42,556 nucleotides of DNA from an uncultured Gammaproteobacteria bacterium (GTDB taxonomy: Bacteria; Pseudomonadota; Gammaproteobacteria; Pseudomonadales; Litorivicinaceae): positions 1-42,556 of the forward strand of contig CAJXNQ010000013.1 of NCBI GenBank assembly GCA_913057215.1, written 5' to 3'. The notes beneath the pieces are model-generated. The model saw nothing but the letters and a program-made list of their open reading frames with translations. It did no database searches and was not told where the DNA came from. Positions within the stretch are counted from its first letter, which is position 1. Each line of letters opens with the position of its first letter. This document shows positions 1 through 9,188 of the stretch, piece after piece. The position numbers and the translations under genes are program-made.

Positions 1-123
1 CCGCCATATGCCCTTGAGTTTCCTTGGGGTTGGCATGCTCGAAAAATATCCGATATTGAAGTGCCTCTCGAATCACTCCGCTTCCAGTGCGTCTCGGCAC
101 TGTCCGATCCAATCTACTGGTAA
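1..123 (+). CDS. 3' end of an unidentified protein-coding gene
   Basis: Frame 1 is open from the window edge to a TAA at 121-123, giving the last 40 residues of a protein. The peptide is rich in Trp, Pro and Arg (it contains EFPWGWHARK and ends SALSDPIYW), which looks like real coding sequence rather than a chance frame. The coding-like composition stops at the TAA and very AT-rich DNA begins. I do not recognise the family. The gene runs in the same direction as the ectoine operon but is separated from it by 255 bp holding a promoter, so it is probably a separate unit. Confidence 0.55.
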   Translation, partial: PPYALEFPWGWHARKISDIEVPLESLRFQCVSALSDPIYW

Positions 124-378
124 AAATTCCTGAATTTAGAAGTTTTATGTGCAGCATTTCGTTGGATGCACAGTGTGTCCAATGTGTATCCTTTCGTGAA
201 ATCAGTAATACAACTAAATATTATGAAACGAATGTTTAAGATGATTAATATGGATTTAAATTATTGATTTTATTTCAACATAACACTTCGTGAGCGAGTT
301 AAATTTCTGTAATTTCCGACGCTTTGACATCATTAATATTTCGTGTACGATACATTAAATTTTTAACATTAATGATTT
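124..378 (+). promoter_or_regulatory. AT-rich leader and promoter of the ectoine operon
   Basis: This 255-bp gap is much more AT-rich than the rest of the window. Near its end lies TTGACA (324-329), a perfect -35 hexamer, followed after 16 bp by TACGAT (346-351), a 4/6 match to the -10 hexamer. Transcription would start near 358, leaving a leader of about 20 nt with no clear Shine-Dalgarno sequence before the ATG at 379. A 6-bp inverted repeat, TGTGCA (148-153) and TGCACA (167-172), follows the upstream gene but has no T-tract, so I do not call it a terminator. Osmotic control of this promoter is expected from ectoine operons elsewhere; nothing visible proves it. Confidence 0.55.
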
Positions 379-2199
379 ATGTCAGTTCAAAGAGTGCGGG
401 ATCTCGTCTTTCGCAAACCGTCAACCGCCGATGGACAGGCCCTGCACATACTGGTGCGTGAGTGTGCACCGCTCGATGAAAACAGCCTCTATTGCAATCT
501 GTTGCAATGCCATATGTGGGCCGATACCTCGATCGTCGCAGTGCTCGATGATCAACTTGTTGGAGCTGTCACAGGTTTTCGAAAACCAGACGATCCCAGT
601 ACTGTGTTCATCTGGCAGGTCGCTGTCCATCCAATCCGCCGAGGATGTGGTCTCGGACAACACATGCTGTCGGAGTTGGTGACTCGGCTGGGACCCTCGC
701 TGAACGCCATCGAAACCACGATTTCCCCAGGGAATGCGGCCTCAGAAAACACCTTTTTGAAACTTGGTCGGGCGCATGGTGCCGACGTTACGACTCATAC
801 CCTCTTTGATTCTGCCAAGCACTTTGATGGAGACCATCCAAGCGAGGTGCTCTGGCGGATCGAACCTTTGCAAGCAACGGAGAAGCAATCGATGTCAATT
901 TTTGAAGACCTTGAATCCAATGTACGCAGTTATTCGCGCTCATTTCCTGTCACTTTTGTACGCGCCAAAGATGCACGGCTCTTTACGGATCAGGGTGAGA
1001 GTTATATCGATTTCCTCGCTGGCGCTGGCGCTCTGAACTATGGGCATAACCCGTCAGCTTTGAAGACTGCGCTGCTTGATTACATTCAGTTGGATGGCGT
1101 GACGCACGGCTTAGACATGCAAACCCATGCCAAGGGCGAATTTTTAAATACATTGGACACGCTCATCTTGAAGCCACGTGGTATGAATTACCGAGTGCAA
1201 TTCACCGGCCCCACCGGGACGAATGCAGTTGAAGCTGCGATGAAACTGGCGCGAAAAGTCAAAGGACGCGAAACAATCGTCTCGTTTACCAATGGATTTC
1301 ATGGGGTCAGTCTGGGCGCCTTGTCAGCCACCGGCAACCAACATCATCGTGGAGGTGCTGGTGTCAACATGCCAGGGATTGTTCGGATGCCGTATGACGG
1401 GTACCTCGGTGATGAGATCGACTCCACCGCTTATTTCGAAAAAATGTTGACCGATCCAAGCAGTGGTTTAGATCATCCAGCGGCTGTGATGGTTGAAACC
1501 ATTCAGGGCGAAGGGGGTGCGACAGCCGCAAGTCTCGACTGGTTGCAGCGGCTTGAGGCGATCTGCCGTGCCCATGACATGCTGCTGATTGTTGATGATA
1601 TTCAGGCGGGTTGCGGACGATCAGGGACGTTCTTCAGTTTCGAAGATGCTGGCATCAGTCCAGATCTCATTACGCTCTCGAAAAGTTTAAGTGGATACGG
1701 CTCGCCCTTATCCATTGTGCTGTTTAAGCCTGCATTGGATCAGTGGTCACCTGGTGAGCATAACGGGACCTTTCGAGGAAATAATTTGGCCTTTGTTACA
1801 GCGACCGAGGCATTTCGGCAGTACTGGTCTGACGATCAGTTGATGCAAGATGTACAGCGAAAAGCGCATTTGGTGCAACGCGAACTCATGACGCTCTGTA
1901 CTGAATTCGAAGATTTTGGGCTGTCTCATCGTGGTCGGGGGCTGATGCAGGGGTTGTACTGTGGTACCGGTGAGTTGGCCGGTCAGATTGCGAAACGATG
2001 CTTTGATCACGGCCTGATTATCGAGACCAGTGGTCCAAATGATGAGGTCTTGAAAGTTCTTTGTCCGCTGACCATTTCAGAAGCCGATCTTTCAGAAGGA
2101 CTCGGGATTCTAGCTGATGCGGTTCGGTTTACCTGTCATCGCACCAAGCCTGAGGTGACCGAAGATGATTACTTTGAAGGATTGAGGTTGGTGAGCTGA
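379..2199 (+). CDS. ectAB: EctA-EctB fusion: diaminobutyrate acetyltransferase + diaminobutyrate-2-oxoglutarate aminotransferase
   Basis: This single 606-residue cytoplasmic protein covers two steps of ectoine synthesis. Residues 1-171 are a GNAT acetyltransferase matching EctA: the substrate-site stretch [14 protein letters not shown] (31-44) and the acetyl-CoA loop RRGCGLG (87-93). Residues 172-606 match a full-length EctB class III aminotransferase, including the [13 protein letters not shown] and [11 protein letters not shown] motifs, DDIQAGCGR, and the PLP lysine K435 in LSKSLSGYG. EctB makes L-2,4-diaminobutyrate from aspartate semialdehyde and glutamate; EctA acetylates it at the gamma amino group. 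The two are normally separate genes. Here no stop lies between them, but an ATG at 892-894 (M172), at the position of the usual EctB start, is preceded by GGAG at 879-882, so separate EctB could also be made. The first ATG lacks a clear ribosome binding site. Confidence 0.93.
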
Positions 2200-2600
2200 T
2201 GATCGTTCGAACACTCAATGACGCAAATCAAACAGACCGTCGCGTGATCTCACCTGATGGAAATTGGGAAAGTTGTCGGTTGATTTTGCGTGATGATCAC
2301 ATGGGGTTCTCATTCCATATCACCACAATCTACGCCGGTAAATCCTTTCGATTACACTATACCCATCATCTGGAGAGTGTGTATTGCATCGATGGTCTGG
2401 GCTCAATTGAATCCCTCGACAGCGGTGAAATTTTCAGCATCCGACCTGGTACTGTGTATGCTCTCGATCAACACGATCCACATATTTTAACGGCCGAGAC
2501 CGAGTTACAGTTGGCGTGCGTTTTTAACCCGCCGGTTGTTGGTGATGAAGTCCATCGCGCAGATGGATCCTATGCACCAGACGATGAGACAGTGAACTGA
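2199..2600 (+). CDS. ectC: L-ectoine synthase EctC
   Basis: EctC closes N-gamma-acetyl-diaminobutyrate to ectoine, the last step of the pathway. The 133-residue protein has the usual length and cupin fold pattern. By alignment from memory with the Paenibacillus lautus enzyme, its metal ligands correspond to E59 (in HHLES), Y87 (in TVYALD) and H95 (in QHDPH). The ATG overlaps the last base of the ectAB stop codon (TGATG), so translation is probably coupled; GAGG and GGTGAG just upstream can act as ribosome binding site. No ectoine hydroxylase gene (ectD) and no dedicated aspartokinase gene follows, so this operon alone would give ectoine and not hydroxyectoine. Confidence 0.96.
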
Positions 2601-2609
2601 GAGGTTTTC

Positions 2610-2882
2610 TTGCACACAGGTCTCGCAGTAAGATCCGCGTCTTTTGCGAGACATGCTGTGACTTTGAAACAAAGCCTTGAGTGGTTCGGCGTTGCAACCG
2701 CGATCTTGTATTCCCTGCTCGTCGCATCAAACACCGGATTTGAGTTCCTTGGATTTGCGTTGTTGTTGGTTTCGGCCGTCTCAATTGGCGTCTGGGCGTG
2801 GTTATGCGGTCATCGGGGCATGTTGGTCTTACAGTTTTTCTACGCCACCGCAGGAATCATCGGTATGCTACGGTGGTTTTGA
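2610..2882 (+). CDS. Small membrane protein of unknown function in the ectoine operon
   Basis: The frame encodes at most 90 residues from a TTG at 2610, or 74 from a GTG at 2658; the shorter form begins with the likely true N-terminus (TLKQSLEWFGVATAILYSLL). GAGAGG lies a few bases before the TTG. Three hydrophobic stretches are visible (about residues 27-42, 46-64 and 70-86), with a short charged loop CGHRG between the last two, so an inner-membrane protein with two or three helices is likely. Only 9 bp separate it from ectC and 27 bp from the next gene, so it is probably co-transcribed. I cannot assign a function; a link with osmolyte handling rests on position only. Confidence 0.6.
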   Translation: MHTGLAVRSASFARHAVTLKQSLEWFGVATAILYSLLVASNTGFEFLGFALLLVSAVSIGVWAWLCGHRGMLVLQFFYATAGIIGMLRWF

Positions 2883-2909
2883 CATCACGCCACTGCTGGA
2901 ATCGCACCC

Positions 2910-3833
2910 ATGTCTGATTGGATTTTGCATCATTATTGGCCATCTCCGTTTGCACATAAAATTCGTCTTGCCCTCAGACTCGCCAACATTCGGTGGGTAT
3001 CTGTTGAAATCCCTCGAGTGCCGCCAAAACCTGATTTGATGCCGTTAACAGGTGGGTATCGGAGAACACCTGTGATGCAGCGTGGTGCTGATGTGTTTTG
3101 TGATACACAAAATATTGCCAGAGTGCTGGGTGAATCGGGGTGTCAGAAATCCCTATTTGCCGATGGCGACATGGATCGTATTTTAAGTTACACCGCCTGG
3201 CTTGATGCGGTTGTCTTTGATCTTGCAGTGCGTGTGGTGTTGACCAACGCATTGGATTCGGCGCCTGCGGAATTCATTCAAGATCGCGGCAGTCTGTACT
3301 TTGAGCCGGATTGGTCTGCAGAACGCCTGACGGCCGAGCTTCCAAGTGTGATGCGCCAGTTGCATGCCCACTGTGCACAAATCAATGCAACGCTCGCCAA
3401 TCGGACGGGCGTATTCTCAGATCAGTTGTCGTATGCAGATGTGGGTGTGGCATTTTTAGCATGGTTTCTTCGCGGCCGGTGGGATTTAGGTGCCGAATTT
3501 CTGGCCCAGTTTCCTCAAATTGTGCGGATTGAGAACACGCTGCATGCATTGGACGATCAATACGTTGAGATGTCCGCATCGGATGCACTGAAAGAGGCTG
3601 CTCAGTGTCAACCGAAGTGGGTTGGTGCGTGGACACCTTTCTGTTTTGAAACACTGTCACTCGGTGACGCAGTCCGTATCAAGCCCAAGGGGCAGTCTGC
3701 CGACCCATGGGTCTCGGGTCGATTACTGGCATTGACAGACACAAGAGTCTCAATCGCATGTGCCCACCCAGATGTCGGTGATGTGGCCGTGCATTTTCCA
3801 GTGGCGGGTTATCAGCTAATGGCAGAGGGCTGA
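2910..3833 (+). CDS. Glutathione S-transferase-like protein with an extra C-terminal domain
   Basis: The first 80 residues form a GST-type thioredoxin-fold domain: the start HHYWPSPFAHKIRLALRLANI matches the glutathione-binding first strand and helix, and GYRRTPVMQRGADVFCDTQNI gives the cis-proline strand and the following Asp. Residues of about 85-225 are the helical C-terminal GST domain. The protein is 307 residues, about 80-90 longer than a plain GST. The extra tail (from about residue 235) is beta-rich, with GDAVRIKPKG and VSGRLLALTDTRVSIAC, and I do not recognise it. It could be a glutathione transferase or a binding or lyase relative; the substrate cannot be told. It sits between the small membrane protein and the exporter gene and is probably co-transcribed with the ectoine genes. 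Confidence 0.8.
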   Translation: MSDWILHHYWPSPFAHKIRLALRLANIRWVSVEIPRVPPKPDLMPLTGGYRRTPVMQRGADVFCDTQNIARVLGESGCQKSLFADGDMDRILSYTAWLDAVVFDLAVRVVLTNALDSAPAEFIQDRGSLYFEPDWSAERLTAELPSVMRQLHAHCAQINATLANRTGVFSDQLSYADVGVAFLAWFLRGRWDLGAEFLAQFPQIVRIENTLHALDDQYVEMSASDALKEAAQCQPKWVGAWTPFCFETLSLGDAVRIKPKGQSADPWVSGRLLALTDTRVSIACAHPDVGDVAVHFPVAGYQLMAEG

Positions 3834-3837
3834 TTCG

Positions 3838-4722
3838 TTGTCGACACCGCATCCTGAAAATCTGCGTTGCATTGGCTTTATGGTCCTATCGATGGCCGGT
3901 TTTGCGATCGAAGATGCTGTCATCAAGTATCTGGCCTTGAGTATGCCAATTTCTCAAGTACTGATGCTGATCGGTTTCGGTGGCATGGTGAGCTTTGCGC
4001 TGTTATCACGGTTTCAACGGGAGCCATTGATACGCCCAGATGTATTTAAACGCTGGTTTGTCATCCGAACAATCTGTGAACTTGGATCCGCAATCTTATT
4101 TGTCACTGCGATTGTCTATGCCTCCTTGTCTGCATCATCTGCGATTTTGCAAGCGACACCCTTAGCAGTTGCATTGGGGGGTGTCTTGGTACTTAAGCAA
4201 ACGGTATCGATCTCTCAATGGGGTTTGATCAGCCTTGGATTTTTCGGTGTTTTGCTGGTGATTGGCCCGGGTACGGACACATTTCAGCCGGCGACACTCT
4301 TTGCGGTCGGAGCCGTGGTATTTCTGGCAGTCCGGGATTTGATTACGCGTGTCATCTCGGTATCGATGCCTGCTGTTGTGGTGTCATTTTGGGCATTTTT
4401 TGCATTGTTGATGTCAGGTGTTGTAACCATCCCTCTCTTTGGAGCTTTTACACCCATCGAGTGGATTCATGTGGGCGTTCTGATTCTTTCTGCAGTGGCT
4501 GGATCGATTGGCTATTACTCGGTTGTTTTGGCAACGCGCGATGGTGATGTGGCGGTGATTGCGCCCTTTCGATATACCCGCTTGGTATTTGCCATGATTT
4601 TGGCCGTACTGATCTTCGATGAGCAGATTACGCCGTTGATGATGGCCGGCAGTCTGCTGATTATTATTTCAGGGATTGGTGTACTCGGATTTACAAGGCC
4701 AGCGCGTCAACGAGTGCCCTGA
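3838..4722 (+). CDS. EamA/DMT-superfamily permease
   Basis: This 294-residue inner-membrane protein has about ten hydrophobic segments in two homologous halves, the EamA (DMT superfamily) pattern. The first half shows SMAGFAIEDAVIKYLA and SASSAILQATPLAVALGGV; the second ends with APFRYTRLVFAMILAVLIFDE followed by a final helix, both typical of the family. The start is a TTG four bases after the GST stop, with no better in-frame candidate nearby. Family members export amino acids, purines or other small metabolites. Its place at the end of the ectoine operon allows a role in releasing an osmolyte or side product, but this is inference. Its 3' end overlaps the convergent BKACE gene by 32 bp. 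Confidence 0.85.
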   Translation: MSTPHPENLRCIGFMVLSMAGFAIEDAVIKYLALSMPISQVLMLIGFGGMVSFALLSRFQREPLIRPDVFKRWFVIRTICELGSAILFVTAIVYASLSASSAILQATPLAVALGGVLVLKQTVSISQWGLISLGFFGVLLVIGPGTDTFQPATLFAVGAVVFLAVRDLITRVISVSMPAVVVSFWAFFALLMSGVVTIPLFGAFTPIEWIHVGVLILSAVAGSIGYYSVVLATRDGDVAVIAPFRYTRLVFAMILAVLIFDEQITPLMMAGSLLIIISGIGVLGFTRPARQRVP

Positions 4723-5455
4723 CAAGTGATGCATTGTCAGATGCGATTTCGCCGTCGGGAAGCCAGATTCCATTTTCAAAACCTATTCGAAGATCAAGAC
4801 CAGCGTGAGCAGCGTGAGTCAAACATTCAATTTGTGAGATGCCAAAAGCACACACCATTTCATGTGATGGCCGGTCCGATGGCGGAAGCTGTTCGCGGAA
4901 CTCGATAAATGGCTCAAGGTCGCGTGGGTTCGATTGCTGGCCTTGGGCGTAACGACCGAGTACGTACAGCACCTCAAGCTCGATATTTGGAATCATTTCG
5001 CGCCGCTTCAACTCAATCAGATTTGAGAAATCATCCAAGTCATAGACGATAAATTGAACGCGTGTGCGAGCGCACAGTGCGCGAAAAAAAGACATGAGTC
5101 GATCATCCGATTGATCTCGACAGACTTCTCGGATTGAAAGTGACACCCAAGGCGCTTCAAGTGTCTCAAGTAGCGCAATCTGTTGGTCAGACGCATAGAT
5201 TCCGGCGGCCTCTGATGTGACTTGTATGCGCATGTCTGGGACGATCTGATTCATCTTATGAATCAGTTGCTGATAACGCGCCGCATTGAGCAGATGCGTT
5301 TGATCGGCGTTTCGAATATGCGCATGCAATGCGGATGCGCCGGCTTCAAAGCACGCTTTCGCGGTTTGAACGAGTTCATCATCCGTTACGGGAATCTGAG
5401 CGTGGTCTTGGCGCGTTCGCCGTGCACCATTTGGAGCGACCATGATGAGGGTCAT
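4691..5455 (-). CDS. BKACE-family (DUF849) beta-keto acid cleavage enzyme
   Basis: BKACE enzymes condense a beta-keto acid with acetyl-CoA and cleave it to acetoacetate and a new CoA ester, using a divalent metal. The expected features are present: N-terminal VAPNGARRT, the metal-binding HxH as H44 and H46 in SALHAHIRN, strand end QVTSEAAG, and the C-terminal RIGFENG with E227 as probable third ligand. At 254 residues it is shorter than most family members (about 275-310), with loops trimmed but motifs intact. Its ATG overlaps the stop of the aminotransferase gene (ATGA), indicating translational coupling, so its substrate is probably the keto product of that enzyme. Which beta-keto acid is used cannot be read from sequence. 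Confidence 0.85.
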   Translation of the reverse strand: MTLIMVAPNGARRTRQDHAQIPVTDDELVQTAKACFEAGASALHAHIRNADQTHLLNAARYQQLIHKMNQIVPDMRIQVTSEAAGIYASDQQIALLETLEAPWVSLSIREVCRDQSDDRLMSFFRALCARTRVQFIVYDLDDFSNLIELKRREMIPNIELEVLYVLGRYAQGQQSNPRDLEPFIEFREQLPPSDRPSHEMVCAFGISQIECLTHAAHAGLDLRIGFENGIWLPDGEIASDNASLVRALVDALAL

Positions 5456-6801
5456 GCTGCACTCGCGTGGCGGGCACTAACCTTTATAATCGCGCGTTCC
5501 AAACGCGTTACGATCTCTTTGATATCGGCCGAATCCATAATGAACGGCGGCGCTAATAAAATATGATCCCCATGCCGACCATCGACTGTTCCTGACATCG
5601 GATAGCACATCAACGCCTCATCCATGGCGGCTTTTTTTATGTGCGCTGCAGTCTTGAGCGATGGATCGAGGGGTTCTTTTGTCTCTGAATTTGCAATCAG
5701 CTCAATACCAACAAATAAACCGCGGCCGCGAATGTCTCCAACCCACGGGTGTCGACCAAGTGCATGCGTGAGTTGGTGGATGAGTTCTACGCCTTGCGTT
5801 TGAATCTGCTCCATCAGTCCAGGTTGTGTCAGCTGACGCAGGACGGCCAGCGAAGCGGCGCATGCGGTCGGGTGTGCCAAATAGGTGTGTCCATGCTGAA
5901 AGAAACCGGATCCTTGAACAATGGCATCATAAATTACGCCCTGACAAAGCATCGCTCCGATCGGCTGGATTCCAGCACCCAGGCCTTTAGCGATACAAAC
6001 GATGTCCGGACTGATCCCATCATATTCGGATGCGAATAAGTACCCTGTGCGACCCATGCCGCACATGACTTCGTCGAGAATTAACAATACACCGTAGGCA
6101 TCACAAATTTCCCGGATTCTCTGGAAATAGCCATCGACGGCTGGCACAGCGCCCATGGTGGCGCCGACAACTGGTTCGGCAATAAACGCGCACACTTTCT
6201 CTGGCCCAACGCGAAGGATCTCCGTTTCCAGTTCATTGGCCACACGTTGCCCGTAATCGTAATCTGACTCACCTGGTTTGCCCCACCGCCAATAATGACA
6301 TGGGCTGATGTGGCTCATCTGTTGCGGCAATAAGGGTTCAAATTGACGCCGACGCCACTGATTTCCTCCGCTACCGAGTGCTCCCAACGTATTTCCATGA
6401 TAGCTCTGACGCCGTCCGATTATATGTGTGCGCTCTGGCTGACCGATCTCCAGAAAATATTGGCGAGCCAGTTTTAAGGAGGCTTCAACTGCCTCGCTGC
6501 CTCCACTGACGAAGTACACGCGGTCAATGCCAGCTGGTGCATGCTGGATGAGGAGATCTGCTAAGTCCTCTGCCGGTTGTGAGGTGAAAAAGCCGGTGTG
6601 TGCAAAAGCGACTTGACTCAGTTGATCACAGGTTGCCTCAATCACCTGCGTTGGCGAGTGTCCCAAACAGCTCACAGCAGCACCGCCGCACGCATCAAGA
6701 TAGCGGCGGCCGTCTTCGGCAATTAAGTAGATGCCGTCTCCTGCAACAGCCTTTGGCAGGTCTTGCGTTGGATTGCGGGCAAAAATATGCGAAGAACTCA
6801 C
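5452..6801 (-). CDS. Class III PLP-dependent aminotransferase (substrate unknown)
   Basis: This 449-residue protein is a fold-type I, class III aminotransferase. It shows the phosphate-binding VSGGSEAVEASLKLAR, the SYHGNTLGALG segment, ILDEVMCGMGRTG with the pyridine-contacting D243, and the Schiff-base lysine K272 in CIAKGLGAG. Class III enzymes transaminate omega- or beta-amino groups or amines. The start is a GTG preceded by AGGAG with 7-nt spacing; the upstream permease stop lies 14 bp away. It lies third in an operon with a TAXI-type TRAP transporter and a BKACE enzyme, which suggests it turns an imported amino compound, perhaps a beta-amino acid, into the keto acid cleaved by its neighbour. 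The close match to GabT-like proteins means a role in omega-amino acid use is also possible. Confidence 0.87.
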   Translation of the reverse strand: MSSSHIFARNPTQDLPKAVAGDGIYLIAEDGRRYLDACGGAAVSCLGHSPTQVIEATCDQLSQVAFAHTGFFTSQPAEDLADLLIQHAPAGIDRVYFVSGGSEAVEASLKLARQYFLEIGQPERTHIIGRRQSYHGNTLGALGSGGNQWRRRQFEPLLPQQMSHISPCHYWRWGKPGESDYDYGQRVANELETEILRVGPEKVCAFIAEPVVGATMGAVPAVDGYFQRIREICDAYGVLLILDEVMCGMGRTGYLFASEYDGISPDIVCIAKGLGAGIQPIGAMLCQGVIYDAIVQGSGFFQHGHTYLAHPTACAASLAVLRQLTQPGLMEQIQTQGVELIHQLTHALGRHPWVGDIRGRGLFVGIELIANSETKEPLDPSLKTAAHIKKAAMDEALMCYPMSGTVDGRHGDHILLAPPFIMDSADIKEIVTRLERAIIKVSARHASAA

Positions 6802-6815
6802 GATGACACTCCTAT

Positions 6816-9188
6816 TTAGCTCGTCTGCATGTCAGATTGTTTGAGTTGGCGACTCCGTTGCCCTTGGATTGTCCACAGGCCAAAAAGGACGATTAATCCA
6901 GGAATGTAGTACCAGTATTTTGAAAGACGTTCGTCAGCAGCCTCGATGGCCAAGATGGCCATCCCGTTTTGCAGTCCAAGTTTGGCACCGGGACCATTAA
7001 ATTCCCGCAGTTGGACCTGTAATGCGCCGTCGTAGAGAAATGAAGGGGAGACGGCAATACCGAGTGATTTTGATGAAATATTTTGCTCCTCACTTGCATC
7101 GATCTGCAGCGTCAATTCTTCGTTCAGGAGATTGATTGCACGAATCACGACTGAGGATTCATTGATGCCTGTCTCCAGACGTTCGATTGGAATGGTTCGC
7201 GCTGTGGGCGGTTCGATATAGTTTTGTAGAAGCCCTGGCCGAAATAGATTCAGGCATACAAGCAGCAATAAGATAATTTCTGGCCACGTCAGGCGCGTGC
7301 GCATCCAGCCTTGTGACGCAGCTGTAAAGGCTAAAATTGCGAGCAAACTCATGGTAAAGATCAAGAGTCCCTCGGCGATGGTTTCAACGTTGATCAAAAG
7401 AAGTTCGACATTAAACAAAAAGACGAAGGGCAAAATGGCGGTGCGGGAGGAATACCAAAACGCCTGAAAGCCTGTCTTGATCGGATCCGCTCGACTGATT
7501 GAGGCAGCAGCGTAGGAGGCCAAACCAACCGGGGGCGTTACATCTGCCATCAGACCGAAGTAAAAACAAAAGAGATGAATCGCGACCAACGGAAAATCGA
7601 AGCCTGATTGGCGCCCGAGGGTTGAAACAATTCCAACCATTAACGTTGAGACGATGAGATAGTTGGCAGTGGTTGGCAGCCCCATCCCGAGGATAATTGA
7701 AAGAACGGCCGTGGCGATGAGAATCGGGATGATTGAGTCGCCAGCGATCGCCGTGAGCACTTCTTGTAACGCATTCGAAAGTCCAGACGCACCGATCGAT
7801 CCCATCACCAGACCTGCGGCTGCGACCGCAATTGAGACTGCGATCATGTTTCGGGCGCCTGCCTTAAATCCTTCAGCAACGACGCGCCCGGCAAGCTTCA
7901 GTGCATTCCTGAAACGGTTGGGCTGACCTCGTGTTCCTAGAAAGGCCTCAACTGCAAAGACGGCAACCAGCGTGATGACGCAAATCAATGCAGATCGATC
8001 TGGGCTGAAGCGAAACACCGTCAGCATGATGATCAGCACGGCAATTGGAATCAGATATTGCCATCCGCGCGCTAACACTGAGAGCACCGCGTCTTGGACT
8101 GGAATCGTTTTCAGACCGAGCTTACAGGCCTCGAGATGCACGATATAGAACAATGCGATATAGGAAATAACGGCGGGAATGAATGCATGTTTGATGATTT
8201 CGAAATAAGTCATTCCAAGCACTTCGGCCATCACAAAGGCGGCCGCTCCCATGATTGGGGGCATGATTTGGCCATTGACTGATGAAGCGACTTCAATCGC
8301 TCCCGCCTTTTGTGCCGGATATCCGTTTTGTTTCATGATTGGAATGGTGAATGTTCCCGTGGTCACCGTGTTCGCGATCGATGATCCAGAGATCATTCCA
8401 GTGAATCCTGATGCAAGAACTGCCGATTTAGCCGGTCCACCTCGCAGGTGCCCGACAGAGGCAAAGGCCATGTCAATAAACCATTTGCCAGCGCCACCCT
8501 TGTCAAGCAGTGCACCAAACAGCACGAACAGAAAAATCGTATTGGTCGAGACTCCGAGTGGAATGCCAAAAATACCCTCTTGGCCGAACCACTGCGTGGT
8601 GACATACCGCGTCGTACTCACGGCTGACAGTCCAAAGGGTTCCGGGAGATACTGATTAAACAGGGTGTATACGATGAAGAAACTGCCAATCAGCGTCAGC
8701 GCGAGGCCAACAATACGTCGCGCAGCCTCTAAAATGATGAGGATTGCACACCAGCCGAGCAGAAATTCAAATTCGATTGGCCCGAGACCTGGAACCATGA
8801 GAGGTCTAGTTTGTCCAGTCGTGCCGATGATTTCAGAAAAAAAGACGGCTTGCCAAATACACGCGAGTCCCACAACGCTTGCGATCAATAAGTCCAGTGG
8901 CGGAATTCGGTCACGCGTGGTCGACTGCCCCCGAGCGGGGTATATTAAGAAGCACAGCACGGCGCCAAAAAACAAATGGATTGCCCGCGCGTAAATATCG
9001 TTGATGATCCCAAAGCCGACGATTTGCTCAAGTCGTGGCCCGAGTCCACTGGATAAATAAACCTGGAACGTCGACCATGCGATCAGGAGTGCATTGACGA
9101 CAAGACTCCAGCGCCCGGACAGTTCAATCTCACCTGTTTCCCGAGCGACCACCGCGCTTGTGTCGTTTGAATCAATTTGCTGTGTCAT
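6816..9188 (-). CDS. TRAP transporter fused permease, TAXI family (small + large subunits)
   Basis: The 790-residue membrane protein fuses the small (about residues 28-200, four helices) and large (about 210-640) TRAP permease subunits, the arrangement usual for TAXI-type systems. Landmarks include LFGALLDKGGAGKWFIDMA, SGSSIANTVTTGTFTIPIM, ILGMGLPTTANYLIVSTL and LMADVTPPVGLASYAAA, the conserved large-subunit loops. The C-terminal 150 residues, with a beta-rich stretch between two last helices, resemble the DUF3394 extension found on such fusions. It would import the ligand of the periplasmic protein at 9238-10221 using a sodium or proton gradient. The ATG has no Shine-Dalgarno sequence; the mRNA instead reads CCTCC just before it, and a 12-bp hairpin lies directly upstream, so expression is probably lower than that of the binding protein. 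Confidence 0.93.
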   Translation of the reverse strand: MTQQIDSNDTSAVVARETGEIELSGRWSLVVNALLIAWSTFQVYLSSGLGPRLEQIVGFGIINDIYARAIHLFFGAVLCFLIYPARGQSTTRDRIPPLDLLIASVVGLACIWQAVFFSEIIGTTGQTRPLMVPGLGPIEFEFLLGWCAILIILEAARRIVGLALTLIGSFFIVYTLFNQYLPEPFGLSAVSTTRYVTTQWFGQEGIFGIPLGVSTNTIFLFVLFGALLDKGGAGKWFIDMAFASVGHLRGGPAKSAVLASGFTGMISGSSIANTVTTGTFTIPIMKQNGYPAQKAGAIEVASSVNGQIMPPIMGAAAFVMAEVLGMTYFEIIKHAFIPAVISYIALFYIVHLEACKLGLKTIPVQDAVLSVLARGWQYLIPIAVLIIMLTVFRFSPDRSALICVITLVAVFAVEAFLGTRGQPNRFRNALKLAGRVVAEGFKAGARNMIAVSIAVAAAGLVMGSIGASGLSNALQEVLTAIAGDSIIPILIATAVLSIILGMGLPTTANYLIVSTLMVGIVSTLGRQSGFDFPLVAIHLFCFYFGLMADVTPPVGLASYAAASISRADPIKTGFQAFWYSSRTAILPFVFLFNVELLLINVETIAEGLLIFTMSLLAILAFTAASQGWMRTRLTWPEIILLLLVCLNLFRPGLLQNYIEPPTARTIPIERLETGINESSVVIRAINLLNEELTLQIDASEEQNISSKSLGIAVSPSFLYDGALQVQLREFNGPGAKLGLQNGMAILAIEAADERLSKYWYYIPGLIVLFGLWTIQGQRSRQLKQSDMQTS

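Follow-up and report, generated by a model that had tools for sequence, protein, structure and literature searches.

The window, the 42,556-nucleotide stretch of DNA analysed here, carries ectA and ectB in one continuous reading frame. This raises the question of whether the two enzymes are made as a single functional protein, and whether EctB is also still made on its own. Ectoine is a widespread osmoprotectant (salt-protectant) that is made industrially. The window is one whole contig of a 1.58-Mb, 53-contig genome that is 92.67% complete, and its ect region has the following features.

324..351 (+): sigma-70-like promoter, TTGACA-16-TACGAT, upstream of the fused gene (10/12 consensus matches)
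379..2199 (+): ectAB fusion gene, 606 codons from ATG to TGA, no in-frame stop
379..870 (+): EctA (diaminobutyrate acetyltransferase, GNAT) domain, residues 1-164; TIGR02406 matches residues 11-164
871..891 (+): 7-residue linker QATEKQS, residues 165-171, delimited by comparison with loci L005 and L006
879..882 (+): Shine-Dalgarno-like GGAG, 9 bases before ATG 892; dG -6.6 kcal/mol with the anti-SD
892..2199 (+): EctB (diaminobutyrate--2-oxoglutarate transaminase) part, stop codon included; TIGR02407 matches from residue 172
2199..2600 (+): ectC, ectoine synthase (NF009806, 182.4 bits, cut-off 128; PF06339)

The earlier note had described a natural EctA-EctB fusion in a single 606-codon frame, and this description held. 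The frame is open from 379 to 2199, the same stop-free frame was recovered in a search of the source genome, and both halves score above curated cut-offs. The EctA half reached 159.9 bits against the equivalog TIGR02406 (cut-off 120.6, a margin of 39 bits) and also gave sequence matches to PDB entries 3d3s and 6sjy. The EctB part reached 655.3 bits against the equivalog TIGR02407 (cut-off 552.2). An ordinary split pair misread as a fusion was rejected, there being no in-frame stop in 379-2199. Lysine K435 lies in an SKS motif, fits the PLP-binding lysine and is invariant in the eight fused proteins of alignment A2. By motif, without alignment, it corresponds to Lys274 of Paenibacillus lautus EctB as given in an excerpt of PMC6915088.

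The ectC gene starts on the last base of the ectAB stop codon (a 1-base overlap), so that EctA, EctB and EctC are encoded together as an ectoine operon. The promoter listed above is one of six sigma-70-like sites in positions 1-3000, compared with 3.2 +/- 2.2 in shuffled sequences, which is not significant by number. On the same strand, 3' of ectC (2610-4722), lie a 90-residue ORF without a family match and genes for a glutathione S-transferase-like protein and an EamA-type transporter; ectC and these genes possibly form one transcription unit. The opposite strand at 4691-9188, convergent with the ect genes, carries together a beta-keto acid cleavage enzyme, a class-III aminotransferase and a fused TRAP permease, which may serve the uptake and breakdown of an amino compound.

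A gene of this kind could in principle be kept mainly for EctB while its EctA half decays. Identity to the nearest relative (L006) is 54.6% for EctA and 83.2% for EctB. In addition, the C-terminal EctA motif at 862-867 (residues 162-163) reads IEP, while xGP was found in 139 of 160 loci and ISP in one other, 19 being unreadable. However, the EctA half stands 39 bits above its cut-off, and its identity falls within the spread for pairs of that EctB distance (62.7 +/- 11.9). When 130 loci are compared, 40 EctA columns are conserved in 85% of them; the window is changed at five of these columns, its split sisters at six and five, and the median is two. None of the 99 EctB columns conserved in 95% is changed in the window. 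Since its conserved-column changes equal those of the split sisters, a decaying EctA was rejected. A search of the source genome with the EctA model gave the window copy as the sole match at E <= 0.001, while EctC is intact. The EctA half must therefore work if ectoine production in the cell follows this pathway, unless another copy lies in the missing part of the genome. Decay is thus quite improbable.

The AlphaFold model of the fused protein, which is a model of the monomer, gave a mean pLDDT of 89.1 and a pTM of 0.76. Confident blocks flank a weak junction (pLDDT 66-68 in residues 161-190), and EctA is mostly of high confidence. In a Foldseek search, the EctB half matched the EctB crystal structure 9s1q with a TMt of 0.98. 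The 50 matches listed were EctB and other aminotransferase- or racemase-like chains, so the assignment of the EctA half relies on its sequence and on the confidence of the model.

Within the genus of the window, the ect pair was present in three of 22 genomes, the window included and several genomes being incomplete, so ectoine synthesis seems unevenly distributed in the genus, whose genomes are small. In both same-genus relatives with ect genes, ectA and ectB are split. In G014 (L005), ectA ends with TAA, followed by an 18-base gap and ectB, and this TAA aligns with the window CAA at 871-873. The nearest relative is G010 (L006; EctB 83% identical), in which EctA crosses the Shine-Dalgarno sequence in another frame and stops inside ectB. 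The stretch matching the window linker is thus a spacer or an overlap in these two loci, and ATG 892 is at the position where EctB begins in split relatives. The split state of both relatives indicates that the change from split to fused in the window gene may be recent. If so, retention of an internal start in the window is weak evidence by itself, and the weight falls on other, older-looking fused clades.

The same comparison bears on whether a draft-genome error in sequencing or assembly could have produced the fusion, the true pair being split as in the relatives. A single base change or indel could open the frame, as the TAA of L005 and the CAA of the window illustrate. Several observations speak against such an error. 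More than one change separates the junctions of the window and L006, named isolates and single-contig genomes carry this fusion too, and at least 8 of 206 EctB-matching genomes of the order are fused, which by a rough estimate is far above the per-site consensus error. An artefact is consequently very improbable.

The earlier note had also proposed a search for the EctA+EctB architecture and its mapping on a tree. Both were run on genomes and yielded 23 distinct fused genes in 10 fused-only clades. The idea that the fusion is unique to the window was accordingly rejected. The fused genes include those of 13 Stutzerimonas genomes, six genomes of family f28, one member of a Reinekea genus code, a Rhodococcus and a Kiloniellaceae MAG.

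In the sample of the order, 206 of 390 genomes had an EctB-like match at E <= 1e-100. At least eight of these carry a fused gene, a minimum because the loci checked were only among the matches listed. They are the window, five members of genus g55 in family f28 (G088, G146, G191, G211 and G249), one member of genus g103 in the same family (G230), and G158 of f6/g92. In f28 as a whole, 13 of 15 genomes matched at E <= 1e-90 and six were fused; G268, which shares genus g103 with the fused G230, is split with a 4-base overlap. Many of the f28 genomes (L061-L078) carry one or two extra genes for EctB-like transaminases that lack an EctA gene immediately before them. All seven f6/g92 genomes matched, G158 being fused and the other six split. 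This group is called a Reinekea genus code because the EctB of one member is identical to that of Reinekea blandensis.

In the class (369 genomes) and phylum (398 genomes), EctB matches at E <= 1e-125 were found in 49 and 54 genomes, respectively. The 71 loci checked, which do not span every match, gave no further fusion: 66 were split and five had no EctA upstream. In the tables for order, class and phylum, 40 loci with long open frames resembling fusions were also followed up: 38 were split, two lacked an upstream EctA and none was fused.

A scan of genome contigs with P0001 alone found no relative. When the eight-protein fused alignment was used, the best 80 of 540 confirmed loci comprised seven fused and 73 split pairs; this ranking favours in-frame pairs, so the fused share among the 80 is no estimate of frequency. 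Four of the seven come from Pseudomonas sp. Q2-TVG4-2, Stutzerimonas azotifigens 115A1, S. nosocomialis A31/70 and Rhodococcus sp. 14-1411-2a. The others belong to the Kiloniellaceae MAG and to two Pseudomonadales/Gammaproteobacteria MAGs with an EctB identical to one found in f28. The genus that includes G043 (f20/g21) is called Stutzerimonas because genes found in it are identical to L198, L209 and L211. In this genus, 55 of 56 genomes had a match; 13 were fused without interruption, three of which are listed with one contig (G1132, G1153 and G1156), and 42 were split. All 42 split pairs were checked (L271-L287, L289-L313) and are in different frames, with a 4-base overlap in 41 and a 14-base gap in one. 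Since split pairs overlap in a different frame, a frame shift could yield the fusion of the 13 genomes.

To estimate the number of origins, a quick maximum-likelihood tree was built for 160 EctA+EctB pairs (LG+G4, with SH-aLRT as the sole branch support), five rows identical to others being dropped. The 23 fused rows required 10 parsimony state changes, a count that weakly resolved branches (e.g. L048 versus other g55 members) could lower and that does not separate gain from loss of fusion. An earlier 130-row tree with eight fused rows had required five. Taken together, these trees suggest that the fusion arose repeatedly, apparently independently in different bacteria.

Fusion might then be a neutral side effect of the tight packing of ect operons, with stops easily lost, a fused enzyme that performs no worse than separate ones, and channelling and ratio control unimportant, a reading that is compatible with two products from one gene. 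The fused and the split state are interspersed among closely related genomes, and in Stutzerimonas 41 of the 42 split pairs are placed such that a frame shift could suffice. Against this, the fused-only clades include ones of nine and four genes in which the fusion has been retained, and in one clade the linker looks constrained as protein. In the f28 clade of four fused genes, the linker is 22 codons long in each. Among L041, L042 and L043 it gave a pN of 0.19-0.20 and a pS of 0.75-0.82; in comparisons with L036, the values were 0.42-0.50 and 0.56-0.69. The linker of the first three thus looks like a sequence evolving as translated protein, the comparison with L036 being less clear and 22 codons being little sequence. 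We give the neutral explanation slightly less than an even chance.

The second question concerns the EctB start inside the fused gene. The earlier note had pointed to GGAG (879-882) and ATG 892 at the normal EctB start, and both are indeed present at the junction. The pairing energy of this GGAG is close to the mean over 122 split EctB starts (-6.47 kcal/mol). Within the window alone, the junction site is matched or bettered by about 3.4% of the 582 in-frame positions (p = 0.034), and two of 13 other in-frame ATGs have an equally good Shine-Dalgarno sequence. The junction motif was therefore rejected as convincing by itself: the match is modest to moderate for the window, and becomes strong only when set against the other fused genes.

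In each of the 23 fused genes, an ATG stands at the EctB start or shortly upstream of it, and its Shine-Dalgarno energy reaches at least -4.7 kcal/mol (mean -6.45, sd 1.08), so that such a site and an in-frame start are kept at the domain boundary. Other in-frame ATGs of the same genes reach -4.7 in 32 of 326 cases, this threshold being the weakest of the 23 and set after viewing them. At -5.6 or better, the junction ATG qualifies in 22 of 23 genes versus 19 of the 326 other ATGs. The junction ATG lies 13 codons before the aligned EctB start in Rhodococcus and four codons before it in Kiloniellaceae. In the other 21 genes the junction methionine occupies one column, and none of the 49 other methionine-holding columns is invariant. 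Among the six f28 genes, whose EctB proteins are 67-68% identical between the most distant members, two of 25 other methionine columns are invariant. The nine-member Stutzerimonas clade has 19 other methionine columns, 18 of which are invariant as well, so retention of the methionine there says little. Part of the Shine-Dalgarno letters could also be held in place by amino-acid conservation around the EctB start.

The start of EctA differs from that of EctB. In the window, ATG 379 has almost no Shine-Dalgarno site (dG +1.3). EctA starts were rather weak in split pairs too, averaging -2.71 (n = 108), and averaged -1.03 in the 10 scorable fused genes, 44 loci having been skipped for want of a usable start. 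A good site at the own EctA start was found in one of these 10 fused genes (L225). The combination of a weaker EctA start with a stronger EctB start after it thus seems to be an ancient trait of the ect operons.

These data also bear on whether the full-length fusion is the sole product, the internal Shine-Dalgarno sequence and ATG being remnants without a present role. The window fusion may be recent, given its split sisters, and a remnant would look identical to a working site. On the other hand, the site is kept in 23 of 23 fused genes, including the six diverged f28 genes, and the mostly weak EctA starts lead one to expect much initiation at the internal site. Fusion as the only product is therefore unlikely.

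Our preferred interpretation, to which we assign a probability of about 0.62, is that the window carries a real, functional EctA-EctB fusion gene that makes the fusion and probably free EctB too. The ectA stop codon would have been lost from a tightly spaced ectA-ectB pair, allowing translation to cross the old spacer into ectB. Initiation at the weak ATG 379 would then give a 606-residue two-domain enzyme, and initiation at the retained GGAG and ATG 892 would probably also give a free EctB, of a predicted 435 residues. EctB is a homotetramer according to the excerpt of PMC6915088, and the EctA crystal structure in the part of PMC5924519 seen places the substrate in the dimer interface. Fused and free EctB could share oligomers, in which case the internal start would set the number of EctB subunits bearing an EctA module, in line with the subunit ratio proposed in the earlier note. 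Such a mixture would spare the EctB tetramer from carrying four EctA modules, and diaminobutyrate might be passed between the two domains.

A broader proposal is that the fusion is a recurrent, convergent one in several Pseudomonadota lineages and one Rhodococcus, with the internal start kept by selection, a mixed oligomer whose ratio is set by translation, and diaminobutyrate handed to EctA. We regard this as a tentative and rather doubtful extension. That fusions simply come and go where the genes are tightly spaced fits the data equally well.

The natural fusion, which is carried by named isolates such as Stutzerimonas azotifigens 115A1, lends itself to testing whether flux gains from the linkage of consecutive steps. 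Its repeated occurrence together with a kept start raises the question of whether fused genes still make the separate subunit, which is answerable from close fused and split relatives. A fused gene may also pass for ectB alone in annotation, with ectA reported missing. In PMC10165715, S. nosocomialis is reported to have a shortened ectBCD-ask cluster without ectA. In locus L211 of S. nosocomialis A31/70, ectA is present and fused to ectB. The ectA loss reported in that source may be a naming effect, if its strain is that of L211.

No description of an EctA-EctB fusion was found among the results seen in searches of the open-licence literature, some of which used exact phrases. The fusion passages of PMC7824335, PMC5924519, PMC6915088 and PMC13342039 do not mention one, nor does section 17 of PMC10165715. 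The window has the same three enzymes, in the same order and on the same strand, as the canonical ectABC(D) operon (TIGR02406, TIGR02407, PF06339). In that operon, however, EctA and EctB are treated as separate proteins in the sections seen of PMC6915088 and PMC5924519, whereas in the window they share one frame. In CcmM, an internal start gives a long and a short product (excerpt of PMC8580825); this beta-carboxysome protein is a scaffold with an established short form, whereas the window gene is a pathway-enzyme fusion whose short form is predicted only. In Cas8b/Cas11b, translation that begins at a methionine inside the cas8b frame leads to a separate product (PMC11899642, in part). That case belongs to an archaeal CRISPR complex and its product is reported as shown, whereas in the window a whole ancestral enzyme is predicted to have been kept after fusion. 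Internal starts that give long and short products are already known.
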